IMG/VR virus record: IMGVR_UViG_3300030329_003629
Location: 1-53,444 of that record
DNA length: 53,444 bases
Direction: 5' to 3' (one strand)
DNA from: a virus
A program made the position numbers and the translations under genes. Shown one piece after another: positions 48,108 through 53,444 of this stretch (positions are counted from its first letter, which is position 1; every line of letters starts with the position of its first letter). The notes under the pieces are model-generated. The model searched no databases. It was not told where the DNA came from and saw only the letters and a program-made list of their open reading frames with translations.

Positions 48108-49757
48108 CTAATCTCTTTTGTGAGTTACAATAGCATTAGTAGTAAGAATAGTCGTGGCTACACTAATAGCATTTAATAAAGCATTCTTTGTTACTTTCAC
48201 TGGATCTACAATTCCTAACTTAAACATATCTCCATACTCTCTATTAAAGACATCATATCCTTTATTATTAAAAGGAGGGTGAGGAGCATTCTCACTATCT
48301 CCCATCATTTCTTTGGTATATATTTTCCCCATAATTTCATCTGGGTCTAATCCAGCATTTTTTAATATCTGCTCTAAAGGAGCTCGTAAGGCTTCACGTA
48401 ATATCATCTCCGAAGCTTGATCTTCACCAATTATTTCATCAGTTGCATCTTCACAAGAACATCCAAAATGACGGTGGGTATCATATAAAAATAATCCTCC
48501 TCCTGCAATTATCCCTTCCTGCAGGGCGGAACGCACTGCACAGACCGAGTCATCGACTCGGTCAAATTTTTCTTTTTGCTCTATATCAGAATTAGCACCT
48601 ACATAGATACATGCAATCCCTCCAACTAAACTCGCTATTCTTTCGTTAATAAAGTCTTTCTCATGTTTAGCTGTTAACTGTTCTTGTTGTTCTCTAAGTT
48701 CCTCTACTCTTTTAGTAGTCTCTTTTGTTATCTCTCCATTTTTAATTAAGATAGTAGAATTTTTTCCTACAATAATTTTATCTGCATGACCTAAGTCTTG
48801 CATGTTTATAATAGATAAATCATCTCCTGTCTTTTCAGAAAAATATTTAGCTCCGGTTGCAAAAGCAATATCCTGCATAAGCTCATGTGTTTTATATCCA
48901 AATGATGGAGGAGCAATATTACATAGCTTTAAACCATTACGAGCCACATTCGCTGCTAATGTGTTTATAACATTTACCGAGCATTCTCCAATAATTAAAA
49001 GTTTTTCTCCTGAATTTATAATTGGTTTAAGAACATTCTCAATTTGAAGAATATTATTAATCTCAGTGTCACATATTAAAACTTTAACATTCTCTAATAT
49101 ACACTCGTCTTTTCTTTGATCATTCACAAACATAGGAGATGACCAACCTCTATCTATCTTTATTCCATTAGTTACATCACAATATGTTTTATCTGTCTGA
49201 GATCTTTCTACTGTTACAATCCCATCCTTTCCTACTTTCCTATATGCCTCAGCTACTATCTCACCAATCTCTTTCTCATTGTTAGCAGAAATAGAAGCAA
49301 TATCATCTAACATATCATCCGTTACCTGTACTGCATTTTTATTAAGGTTTTTTACAATCATCTCTACATCATACTTAACTCCCCAAATAACATCCCATAT
49401 ATTATGCTGAGGTTGAATCCATTTTATTCCTGCTTGAATTAATGCTTCTGTTAAAACAATAGCGGTTGTTGTACCATCGCCAGCGACATTCGCTGTTTTC
49501 TCCGAAGCTTGCTTTACCATTTTTACCGCGAGGTTCTCAACCGGATCCTCTAAATCGATAGACTTAGCTACGGTTACCCCGTCCTTAGTTACTGTTAATC
49601 CTTGCGTATGATTATTAGATTCAATAATTACTGTTTTACCGCTTGGACCTAATGTGCTTTTTACTGCTTGTGAAATTTTAGAGATTCCTGATATAAGTTT
49701 ATCTCTTCCCTCTTGATCAAAAGAGAGGTCTTTTGGAGTGTACCCTGGGTTCTGCAT
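48108..49757 (-). CDS. groEL: Chaperonin GroEL
   Basis: A 549-residue group I chaperonin. LGPSG (36-40), TKDG (57-60) and GDGTTTA (93-99) form the ATP site, and RVDDSVCAVRSALQEG with GGG (just before LFLYD) is the catalytic Asp region. The C-terminal VKVTKNALLNAISVATTIL is intact, but the flexible GGM tail of cellular GroEL is missing, so the protein ends in THKRD. All key residues are present and it should be active, folding phage proteins such as the capsid protein with its own GroES. Its own TATCTTTG promoter lies 31 bases upstream. Confidence 0.95.
   Translation of the reverse strand: MQNPGYTPKDLSFDQEGRDKLISGISKISQAVKSTLGPSGKTVIIESNNHTQGLTVTKDGVTVAKSIDLEDPVENLAVKMVKQASEKTANVAGDGTTTAIVLTEALIQAGIKWIQPQHNIWDVIWGVKYDVEMIVKNLNKNAVQVTDDMLDDIASISANNEKEIGEIVAEAYRKVGKDGIVTVERSQTDKTYCDVTNGIKIDRGWSSPMFVNDQRKDECILENVKVLICDTEINNILQIENVLKPIINSGEKLLIIGECSVNVINTLAANVARNGLKLCNIAPPSFGYKTHELMQDIAFATGAKYFSEKTGDDLSIINMQDLGHADKIIVGKNSTILIKNGEITKETTKRVEELREQQEQLTAKHEKDFINERIASLVGGIACIYVGANSDIEQKEKFDRVDDSVCAVRSALQEGIIAGGGLFLYDTHRHFGCSCEDATDEIIGEDQASEMILREALRAPLEQILKNAGLDPDEIMGKIYTKEMMGDSENAPHPPFNNKGYDVFNREYGDMFKLGIVDPVKVTKNALLNAISVATTILTTNAIVTHKRD
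48543..48563 (-). other. Perfect 9-bp hairpin inside groEL
   Basis: GACCGAGTC, a 3-base loop, GACTCGGTC. It is a perfect inverted repeat within codons for the RVDDSV segment near the catalytic Asp. In mRNA it would form a stable stem in an otherwise AT-rich gene. The amino-acid constraint alone does not demand it. Confidence 0.6.
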
Positions 49758-50953: not shown

Positions 50954-51163
50954 ATGAACAAGCAAAAAATCATTAAGAACATCATTGAGTTAAACAATGA
51001 GAGAGGTAATCTAAGAGAGAAATTAATGCTACCTAAAGATAAGGCACACTTAAAGCATTTATTAGAACGTATTGATAGTGTTACTGCTGAGATGTCAATG
51101 GAGATTGTATACTTGGAGAACGCAGTAAATAAAGAACAAGCGTTACTCAATATGCAAGATTAA
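50954..51163 (+). CDS. Small coiled-coil protein (69 aa), first of the right-hand run
   Basis: A 69-residue charged helical protein, MNKQKIIKNIIELNNERGNL..., with heptad spacing suggesting a coiled coil. Unknown function. It is preceded by an AAAACACACA leader that recurs before three following genes. The opposite strand also has an open frame here, but the leader and the rightward neighbours support this strand. Confidence 0.6.
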   Translation: MNKQKIIKNIIELNNERGNLREKLMLPKDKAHLKHLLERIDSVTAEMSMEIVYLENAVNKEQALLNMQD

Positions 51164-51183
51164 ACCTTAACCACCACCGAATG

Positions 51184-51207
51184 GCTCGTACTGAATTAAG
51201 TACGGGC
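51184..51207 (+). other. Structured hairpin element 1 (GGCTC...GGGCTTTTCGT type)
   Basis: GCTCGTACT pairs with AGTACGGGC around a 6-base loop, followed by TTTTCGTGG. Flanking CCACCGAA and TTCGTGG can extend the stem. The same flanks and a different, compensating stem occur at the window's right end. It lies 20 bases after a stop codon; it may be a weak terminator or an RNA-processing element. Confidence 0.6.
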
Positions 51208-51215
51208 TTTTCGTG

Positions 51216-51239
51216 GTAGGGGACAATAGTGTTTCCTAC
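51216..51239 (+). other. Second hairpin in the same gap
   Basis: GTAGGGGA pairs with TTTCCTAC (8 bp including two G-T wobbles) around an 8-base loop, directly before the AAACACACA leader of the next gene. Confidence 0.45.
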
Positions 51240-51256
51240 AATTTAAACACACAATT

Positions 51257-51766
51257 ATGAACACACAAGAATTAACAATGAGATTAGATATGCTCATTCC
51301 AACGCAATGGTTATCTAACACTTTTACTGATGGATTATGGGATAGAGATGCTCACAAAGAGATACTATCAAAGGTAGTAGAATTGAATCCTAAATGGGTA
51401 GAGCGAGTAGTGAATTCAACAACAGGATTACATACTGATGGAGAGTTAAAGTTATCTGATGTACTACATGACTTTAAAGGTATCTACTCTGAAGATGAGC
51501 ATTTCCTACCGAGAATATCTACTGAAGTTACTGATGATGAGGTGTATGGATACACTAACATACAAACCTACCGATTATGTTTAGTATTAGACAATGAGCC
51601 GACTGAATGCTCTTATAATCCTTTAGAGAGATTCTTTGAGTTAGTATCTGATGAAGAATTTGAGATTACTGATATTAATCTTATCAATTGGAATGAGGTA
51701 ATTGAGAGATACTCGGAGAGATTAGTAGAGGGATATGAGTATAAACACCAAGTACAATTAGTATAA
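51257..51766 (+). CDS. Hypothetical acidic protein (169 aa)
   Basis: A 169-residue acidic protein (DVLHDFKGIYSEDEHF, then ELVSDEEFEITDINLI and a C-terminal YEYKHQVQLV). Not recognised. Its TAA stop lies one base before the first hammerhead ribozyme fold. Leader AAACACACA at 51245-51253. Expression probably precedes that of the virion genes, inferred from its location in a small-gene run. Confidence 0.65.
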   Translation: MNTQELTMRLDMLIPTQWLSNTFTDGLWDRDAHKEILSKVVELNPKWVERVVNSTTGLHTDGELKLSDVLHDFKGIYSEDEHFLPRISTEVTDDEVYGYTNIQTYRLCLVLDNEPTECSYNPLERFFELVSDEEFEITDINLINWNEVIERYSERLVEGYEYKHQVQLV

Positions 51767-51767
51767 A

Positions 51768-51825
51768 AATACTCTGATGAGTCTGCTGAAATGCAACGAA
51801 ACACCTCGCAAGAGGTGTCAGTATT
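51768..51825 (+). ncRNA. Type I hammerhead ribozyme 1
   Basis: All core elements occur in order. Stem I is AATACT (51768-51773) with AGTATT (51820-51825), 6 bp. The core CTGATGA follows at 51774-51780. Stem II is GTCTGC with GCAAC around a TGAAAT loop (5 bp with a bulged C), then GAAA (51798-51801). Stem III is CACCTC with GAGGTG around GCAA, and the cleavage triplet GTC ends at 51819. Predicted cut between 51819 and 51820. Both ends lie in stem I, hence type I. It begins one base after the stop of the 169-residue gene, and the cut is 25 bases before the next start codon. Confidence 0.85.
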
Positions 51826-51844
51826 AATTAAAAAACACACACAA

Positions 51845-52270
51845 ATGGGATACAATACCGATTGGAATGGAGGACTAACACTTAGTAGAGAGTTGACTCC
51901 AAAAGAGCAAAAAGAATGGAATGCTATTATAGAAAATAGACATGATAGTGAGTATTTTGAGGGAGATGAACGTAGAGAGTTTCCGAGTATATGGTGCGAC
52001 TTTGAGATTGATGGTAAAGAGTTTAGATGGAATGGTAATGAGAAGACTTATGAGGGCATCGGCTGGATTAAATTCTTCCTGAATAAGCTAAAAGAATGGA
52101 ATAAGACAGAAAAAATCTATGCAGAGGGAGAATTAGAATGGCGAGGAGATGATGGAGATGAAGATATGGGAAGAGTAGTAGTAATAGGAATGGAAGTAGG
52201 AGGAAAACACACCATCCACATTGATAATGTAGTATTTGACTACGAAAGAGATAAAACATACTACATATAG
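51845..52270 (+). CDS. Hypothetical protein (141 aa)
   Basis: Start at 51845 (MGYNTDWNGGLTL) is chosen because an upstream in-frame ATG at 51791 lies inside the ribozyme fold; the AAACACACACA leader also precedes 51845. An acidic protein with FSIDGKEFRW-like strands and a Gly/Asp-rich turn (GDDGDEDMG), ending in a Tyr-rich stretch. Not recognised. Its TAG stop shares its last base with stem I of the second ribozyme. Confidence 0.65.
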   Translation: MGYNTDWNGGLTLSRELTPKEQKEWNAIIENRHDSEYFEGDERREFPSIWCDFEIDGKEFRWNGNEKTYEGIGWIKFFLNKLKEWNKTEKIYAEGELEWRGDDGDEDMGRVVVIGMEVGGKHTIHIDNVVFDYERDKTYYI

Positions 52271-52321
52271 ATACTCTGATGAGGACTCAATGTCCGAAAC
52301 TACCGAAAGGTAGTCAGTATC
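52270..52321 (+). ncRNA. Type I hammerhead ribozyme 2
   Basis: A textbook fold. Stem I is GATACT (52270-52275) with AGTATC (52316-52321). Core CTGATGA at 52276-52282. Stem II is GGAC with GTCC around TCAAT, then GAAA (52296-52299). Stem III is CTACC with GGTAG around a GAAA loop, and GTC ends at 52315. Predicted cut between 52315 and 52316, 33 bases before the next ATG. Every helix is perfect, and stems differ in sequence from ribozyme 1 while the core is identical. Confidence 0.92.
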
Positions 52322-52348
52322 ATAAGATACCAATTAAAAACACACACA

Positions 52349-52573
52349 ATGTATAAAACAATGGTTAAAGAAGCCCAAGAATTTTGGGGACAAGTAGCAT
52401 CCGAAAATGGATGGAGTATGAATGGTAGAGGATGTACAATATGGATAAACAAAGACAATGAAGTATTAGATAGTATCTACAATAAAGAAGATAATAAAGA
52501 ATCTTATATCGTAGAAGTAGAGATAGATAATGATGGATACTATGAGAATGAGATATTAATTAAAACAATATAG
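52349..52573 (+). CDS. Small hypothetical protein (74 aa)
   Basis: A 74-residue acidic protein (FWGQVASENGWSMNGRGCTIW, then YIVEVEIDNDGYYENEILIKTI). It follows the second ribozyme and the AAACACACACA leader. Its TAG stop lies two bases before the next ATG. No family recognised. Confidence 0.6.
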   Translation: MYKTMVKEAQEFWGQVASENGWSMNGRGCTIWINKDNEVLDSIYNKEDNKESYIVEVEIDNDGYYENEILIKTI

Positions 52574-52575
52574 AT

Positions 52576-52947
52576 ATGAAAAACAAATATGCACGAAAAT
52601 GTGATTACACAGGTAAAGGAATGAATACAGGATATGTATTTATTGATGACTCCTGTATGATAGATGATAGAGAATTATTTATCAAAGAATTAAGAAAAGA
52701 TAGAGAGGGTATTATTAACTTGATACCAAAAGATATCAAAGATATTCATGGCTTTGATAATTCTTGTTATCTAACTGAAAAAGAGATAGAGGAGTTGTCA
52801 AATAAAGTAGCAAATGCACTTAATAATAATGAAACTGATGAAGAGTTATGCGATATAGCATATGCAGTAGATTATTATTATTGGACACAATGGGAAGATG
52901 AATATGAGTATGAGGAAATTAATGGAGTATTAACTGAAATAGAATAG
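52576..52947 (+). CDS. Conserved phage-type protein with CDYTGKGMN motif (123 aa)
   Basis: A 123-residue acidic protein. The start, CDYTGKGMNTGYVF, resembles a motif seen in small proteins of several phages, with a Cys that could bind metal with C27-region residues. The middle is charged helix; the end is acidic with Tyr and Trp. No reaction can be assigned. Coupled to the genes on both sides by two-base gaps. Confidence 0.65.
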   Translation: MKNKYARKCDYTGKGMNTGYVFIDDSCMIDDRELFIKELRKDREGIINLIPKDIKDIHGFDNSCYLTEKEIEELSNKVANALNNNETDEELCDIAYAVDYYYWTQWEDEYEYEEINGVLTEIE

Positions 52948-53388: not shown

Positions 53389-53410
53389 TTTAATTGTGTG
53401 TGTAGGACAC

Positions 53411-53444
53411 GATTGGCTCACTATGAAAATAGTGGGCTTTTCGT
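53411..53444 (+). other. Structured hairpin element 2 (GGCTC...GGGCTTTTCGT type), cut by window end
   Basis: GCTCACTAT pairs with ATAGTGGGC around GAAA, followed by TTTTCGT. Flanks match the element at 51184 while the stem bases differ with pairing kept. ACGA upstream can also pair with TCGT at the very end. Confidence 0.6.

Follow-up and report, generated by a model that had tools for sequence, protein, structure and literature searches.

The stretch of DNA analyzed here (hereafter the window) is the IMG/VR virus record IMGVR_UViG_3300030329_003629, which is 53,444 bases long, encodes a phage portal protein and a terminase, and carries two putative hammerhead ribozymes, Rz1 and Rz2, at successive gene junctions. 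Its large terminase shares 74% identity with the one from the uncultured podovirus MW202828 and 32–46% with those from Flavobacterium, Cellulophaga and Tenacibaculum phages, which makes a flavobacterium the very probable host of this phage.

All features of the locus lie on the plus strand. Gene A (51257–51766, 169 aa), an open reading frame call that serves as the upstream 'anchor' gene, has no PHROG or Pfam match and ends in a TAA stop at 51764–51766. Rz1 (51768–51825, 58.2 bits) begins one base after this stop, and its predicted cut at 51819^51820 would leave a downstream RNA that starts with AGTATT and has a 25-nt 5′ leader, AGTATTAATTAAAAAACACACACAA (51820–51844), a length typical of the phage set described below. 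Gene B (51845–52270, 141 aa, phrog_38666) lies between the two ribozymes and ends in a TAG stop at 52268–52270, the last base of which, G 52270, is also the first base of stem I of Rz2 (52270–52321, 68.2 bits). The predicted Rz2 cut at 52315^52316 would leave an RNA that starts with AGTATC, followed by a post-cleavage 5′ hairpin, GTATC-ATAA-GATAC (52317–52330, assigned by fold prediction and a permutation test across phages), the rest of an A/C-rich leader, CAATTAAAAACACACACA (52331–52348, from the sequence), and gene C (52349–52573, 74 aa). Genes A and B, like genes B and C, are 78 bases apart, and the predicted cuts lie 25 nt (Rz1) and 33 nt (Rz2) before the ATGs at 51845 and 52349. These coordinates agree with an earlier sequence-only reading of the window, which had placed Rz1 one base after a TAA and Rz2 on the last base of a TAG and had proposed the same starts for the downstream RNAs. 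That reading also claimed a shared leader: AAACACACACA is indeed reached before both ATGs, but the leader is not specific to ribozymes, as AAACACACA also precedes the genes at 50954 and 51257, neither of which has a ribozyme.

Another in-frame ATG, at 51791 inside Rz1, would add 18 residues to gene B through the ribozyme, and cutting would remove it; we rejected it as the true gene B start because the corresponding ATG in L015, another stretch with a gene B homolog, runs into a stop. Sigma-70 promoter sites near the gaps were no commoner than chance, in a scan that does not cover Bacteroidota promoters. Annotated phages yielded no homolog of gene A or gene B, and a blastn search of the Rz2 junction against them gave chance matches only.

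Hammerhead core, fold and covariation

Both elements have a hammerhead core in the type I layout, in which stems II and III are closed and only stem I is open. Stem I is AATACT/AGTATT (6 bp) in Rz1, where stem II has one bulge and stem III has 7 bp, and GATACT/AGTATC in Rz2. The core pattern matched twice in the window, compared with 0.00 matches expected from shuffled windows, and the first loci yielded 52 structure-checked hammerheads with the real core as opposed to none with four scrambled cores.

A first pattern scan of viral contigs returned 42 stretches, four of which (L010, L012, L020 and L034) were chance pattern matches with stem I unpaired; the remaining stretches are hammerheads. 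Two more scans with other stem I letters brought the set to at least 201 distinct phage instances, a sample whose frequencies are not population estimates because CGAAAC and some of the stem I letters were set in advance in the search patterns. Hammerheads are thus common in phages. Across 226 instances the core reads CTGATGA, CTGACGA or CTGAAGA with the predicted cut after TC or TA, and the aligned core is invariant save for its variable N.

Covariation was judged with shuffled and slid controls. In an alignment of 37 distinct phage sequences, 97.5% of cells were paired and 13 of the 16 pairs had changed on both sides, while sliding the partner by one column reduced pairing to only 25–28%. 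The 22 bacterial ribozymes that were aligned, which come from the chromosomes described below, gave 98.6% paired cells, with 10 of 16 pairs changed on both sides, and compensatory changes occur in all three helices in phage and host ribozymes alike. The minimum free energy fold of Rz2 is exactly the hammerhead. Taken together, these sequence comparisons identify both window elements as genuine type I hammerhead ribozymes that are predicted to cleave themselves.

Register of stop, cut and start in phages and chromosomes

To measure placement, the same questions were put to the ribozymes and to random positions in the same loci. Among the matches listed, an upstream stop lies within 15 nt of the ribozyme start in 164 of 201 (82%, compared with 8.8% at random positions), an ATG follows 18–36 nt past the cut in 138 of 201 (69% versus 12%), and both hold in 118 of 201 (59% versus 1.2%). 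The commonest stop offsets among these matches are 0 and −1; Rz2 sits at 0 and Rz1 at −2. Because 59% at ribozymes stands against 1.2% at random positions, this placement is not chance, and it is a rule rather than a coincidence of two junctions. The densest array seen, on a 53.9-kb phage contig (L263), has four hammerhead pattern matches in ∼4 kb.

Same-strand hammerheads flank single genes in several stretches (the window, L015, L031 and L005), and the gene B homologs of L015 and L031 are likewise preceded by a ribozyme. Such flanking could release the segment between two cuts for circularization in the manner of retrozymes, with the ends ligated either by RtcB of the host or through the reverse hammerhead reaction; in the window, this would free a 496-nt RNA carrying gene B (51820–52315) with compatible ends. 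We consider this very unlikely: many phages carry a single ribozyme, no RtcB was found in 21 phage records including that of the window, and Perreault et al. searched for circles without finding any (PMC3088659). Moreover, retrozymes have near-identical tandem ribozymes bounding a replicating unit, whereas Rz1 and Rz2 share little past the core and differ in stems and loops.

The register is also found in cultured phages. Cellulophaga phage phi18:3 has a ribozyme between gp050 and gp049 and Flavobacterium phage elemoE_6-9C has another, at distances of 34 and 28 nt, respectively, from the annotated start codon that follows (both model R1); the elemoE stretch is kept in 68 elemo records. The stop rule is weaker in elemoE, where 71 nt separate the ribozyme from the end of the upstream gene as annotated. 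A small gene annotated on the opposite strand (phanotate41, MT497072.1 16289–16396) covers the elemoE hammerhead and is probably spurious.

When bacterial and archaeal genomes were scanned once, all 12 matches fell in Flavobacteriales or Bacteroidetes. The ribozyme occurs in 27 of 396 sampled Flavobacteriales genomes, all 27 of which are small (1–2 Mb) and encode one lipoprotein family; as a rule there is one ribozyme per genome, and one genome has two matches. In every resolved instance, the ribozyme lies at the junction of a TonB-dependent receptor gene and a short lipoprotein gene; two covariance-model matches that failed the descriptor (L116 and L126) were left out of these assignments. 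The ATG follows 22–27 nt past the cut in 24 of 25 distinct instances, and a stop lies within 5 nt in 20 of 25. That one copy sits on a 1.39-Mb contig (L094) places the host ribozyme on the chromosome. Where the lipoprotein gene lacks a ribozyme, it begins 6–9 nt after the receptor gene in three cases, in an operon-like arrangement, and 59 nt after it in one. A receptor tree needs two changes to account for the ribozyme label, and because the sequence of its L288 row is misread, we limit ourselves to the statement that, judged by this tree, ribozyme presence in the hosts is clustered and old. The lipoproteins (L099–L125, e.g. L106:1578–1913) carry CHECH, CxECHIA, GEFCGDEL and IHCEEH motifs and a His-rich tail, and possibly bind metal; the receptor beside them has weak similarity to heme/zinc receptors.

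The sequence-only reading had proposed a search of related genomes for ribozymes at the same gene junctions, and the outcome is strongly positive in both phages and host chromosomes.

Exchangeable genes and a refolding hairpin

In families with a common upstream gene, that gene, the ribozyme and the 25-nt leader all show identity above background, and directly past the ATG identity falls to ∼0.60, which is background (0.58 for random 100-mers). Homologs of gene A stand upstream of ribozymes that are followed by differing genes, and among phages with one common anchor gene (family 2) nearly all downstream genes differ. The window has the order A-Rz1-B-Rz2-C-D, with gene D (52576–52947, 123 aa) and gene E (from 52950) just downstream and without ribozymes. 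In contrast, the homolog of gene C in L007/L029 directly follows gene A with a single ribozyme between them (A-Rz-C), and a 93% identical homolog of gene D in L041/L055 directly follows gene A and is ribozyme-preceded; thus, gene D has a ribozyme before it in L041 (A-Rz-D) but not in the window. Because homology often ends at the next ATG, ribozyme and leader together look like a dock for exchangeable genes.

The conserved anchor gene, ribozyme and leader ahead of unrelated genes, and the three gene orders, are also what would be seen if ribozyme and leader were kept mainly as a conserved crossover point for swaps of small genes, with cleavage as a by-product. We regard this as improbable. The stem sequences vary freely while their pairing is kept, which argues for selection on the folded RNA and not on DNA identity, and the host ribozyme stays at one fixed junction where no genes are swapped.

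A second feature of some junctions is a hairpin that could form once the ribozyme has released its strand. The predicted Rz2 product begins A-GTATC-ATAA-GATAC-C, in which the former 3′ strand of stem I (GTATC) is followed by a repeat of the 5′ strand of that stem (GATAC); fold prediction gives a hammerhead for the intact RNA and a hairpin for the cleaved product. Other phages have the same possibility with different stems (TGTTAC-ATAA-GTAAC, TGTTGC-ATAA-GCAAC, TATTGC-ATAC-GCAATA, TGTAGC-ACA-GCTACA and TGTGG-AATCCA-CCACA). When pairing was strict, instances were clustered and downstream sequences were swapped between ribozymes, the hairpin was present in 8 of 53 clusters, compared with 1.2 expected and a maximum of 6 in 2000 permutations; a looser count (54/226, with 26 in shuffles) was set aside in favor of this strict one. 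Among the matches listed, 40 of 200 phage instances (∼20%) have the hairpin, which adds ∼10 nt to the distance to the ATG (median 36 with it versus 26 without). Its origin as a relic of a second, tandem ribozyme is possible. At 51216–51240 of the window, another hairpin, GTAGGGGAC-AATAGT-GTTTCCTAC, stands directly before the AAACACACAATT leader of gene A and resembles the predicted 5′ end of the Rz2 product.

Since the 3′ strand of stem I has two possible partners, stem I and the downstream hairpin could instead be the alternative folds of a regulated switch, in which a ligand, a protein or the ribosome decides cutting, as in glmS. With the stop codon overlapping stem I or lying right beside it, stem I could be kept open by a ribosome that has reached the end of the upstream gene. 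This too is unlikely in our judgment, because the full-length fold favors the hammerhead, most members have no hairpin, the linkers hold no conserved extra domain for a ligand, and the downstream genes are unrelated.

Junction elements of other kinds were seen as well. In MW202828.1 (L304, 43747–49876), a palindrome, GTGTCGTTAACGACAC, stands right after the stops at several early-gene junctions and is followed by an A-rich leader and an ATG, giving the same stop-hairpin-leader layout without a ribozyme. Another intergenic RNA-like element, TGGCTC-hairpin-GGGCTTTT, lies between a stop codon and the next leader at 51170–51257 and 53400–53444 of the window and in L015, L024, L039, L310, L312 and L313; it lies inside an outer stem that varies in sequence between copies and is still pairable. 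The element, for which Rfam gave no match, may act as a terminator or as a stem for processing. A GroEL-type chaperonin gene at 48108–49757 of the window is common to MW202828 and Flavobacterium phages.

Proposed transcript processing and its relation to known ribozymes

The same junction placement recurs in phages and in host chromosomes, which makes transcript processing the best reading: type I hammerheads probably punctuate the polycistronic phage transcript gene by gene. The processing scheme put forward by the sequence-only reading gains support from this placement, while cleavage in the cell, the chemistry of the ends and the effects on stability and translation are what we infer from it. 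Each ribozyme would fold as the polymerase passes, where one open reading frame ends, and then cut itself. Nearly all of it, including stems II and III, would remain on the upstream message as a structured 3′ end, since the stem left open is stem I. Hammerhead cleavage leaves a 2′,3′-cyclic phosphate on the upstream RNA and a 5′-OH on the downstream RNA, and the downstream message would thus have a clean 5′-OH end and an A/C-rich leader of 25–33 nt. At Rz2, the freed strand would fold back into the 5′ hairpin, and this refolding should both prevent reversal of the cut and cap the 5′ end that it creates. Such a standard 5′ end would resist phosphate-dependent decay, giving each gene its own lifetime and translation rate. 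An effect of this kind is plausible because RiboJ, an engineered insulator made of a hammerhead and a hairpin, raises transcript levels about twofold and protein levels two- to tenfold in Escherichia coli (PMC6206723).

Several observations weigh against this interpretation. The isolated Rz1 has a minimum free energy fold that is not the hammerhead (−17.4 versus −14.7 kcal/mol for the hammerhead). Searches of the window and its relatives found no hammerhead family (RF00163, RF00008 or RF03152) at the curated Rfam cut-off, and relaxed cut-offs still gave no confident match; these sub-threshold scores mark a limit of the three models rather than of the fold. No tertiary contact between stems I and II (loop–loop or pseudoknot), of the kind that speeds natural hammerheads and is common among them though not universal, was identified, though no test was aimed at one. 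Neither Rz1 nor any of the host ribozymes (0/25) has the hairpin. Finally, no such ribozyme is present in MW202828 (model R1), the closest of the complete relatives, so the device is dispensable; three further relatives also lack it, and Tenacibaculum phage Gundel_1 gave a marginal match only (model R1).

The idea of splitting transcripts in this way is not new. Hammerheads that lie close together and flank single genes of varying identity in prophages were described by Perreault et al. in 2011, who proposed single-gene mRNA processing and demonstrated cleavage of some tandem ones both in vitro and in E. coli (PMC3088659). The suggestion of the sequence-only reading that the arrangement had not been described therefore holds only in part. 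The 2011 sets cover types I–III, mostly from prophages, and the available text of that article gives no ribozyme–stop codon rule (the words 'stop codon' do not occur in it) and, unlike the present set, no refolding hairpin or flavobacterial operon (PMC3088659). In the same text, the HHphage hammerhead of haloviruses HF1/HF2 lies 13 nt upstream of a start codon, and the 5′ end mapped for the transcript is no more than 3 nt away from its cut; like the ribozymes described here, it precedes a start codon in a lytic virus, but it has an archaeal host and a variant core, and it stands before the first gene of a polycistronic transcript and not at an internal junction (PMC3088659).

RiboJ, whose hammerhead removes the RNA ahead of it, has the order ribozyme, product 5′ hairpin, leader and start codon that is seen in Rz2 and in the 40 hairpin-bearing phage instances, though not in Rz1. 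It was engineered from the sTRSV ribozyme, placed after promoters and given an appended hairpin, whereas the natural hairpin re-uses a strand of stem I (PMC6206723). A fuller claim, to which we give somewhat less than an even chance, is that the stop-locked hammerhead with its 5′ cap hairpin is a natural RiboJ-like device, which would provide whatever gene follows it with a standard mRNA start, which phages would use as a gene dock and which in a marine Flavobacteriales operon resembling one for metal uptake would uncouple expression of the receptor and the lipoprotein. The Theta (HDV-like) ribozymes of gut phages are likewise self-cleaving, with a proposed role in RNA processing, but in the available text they have another fold and are tied to tRNA-based recoding instead of mRNA junctions (PMC10879173). 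The best Rfam resemblance of several members is to the RAGATH-1 hammerhead (RF03152), with which they have the core and stem III in common; these matches reach 28–36 bits, as opposed to a gathering score of 56.3, and the present ribozymes do not share the upstream hairpin of RAGATH-1.

According to a 2017 review, it is open what function hammerheads serve in prokaryotes (PMC6155905). The open-licence literature yielded no paper that places hammerheads at a TonB operon or deals with them in flavobacteria in this sense, and what appears to be new is the exact register, together with the refolding hairpin and the chromosomal operon. A fixed stop-cut-start register across phages and in a chromosomal operon of free-living bacteria provides a specific hypothesis on what hammerheads do, with relatives that have the same operon but no ribozyme as a natural control, and cultured carriers (the elemo phages and phi18:3) make it testable. 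These results suggest that ribozyme punctuation is a widespread, protein-free way of splitting a long message into gene messages and, if true, synthetic biology would have in it a natural family of ribozyme insulators.
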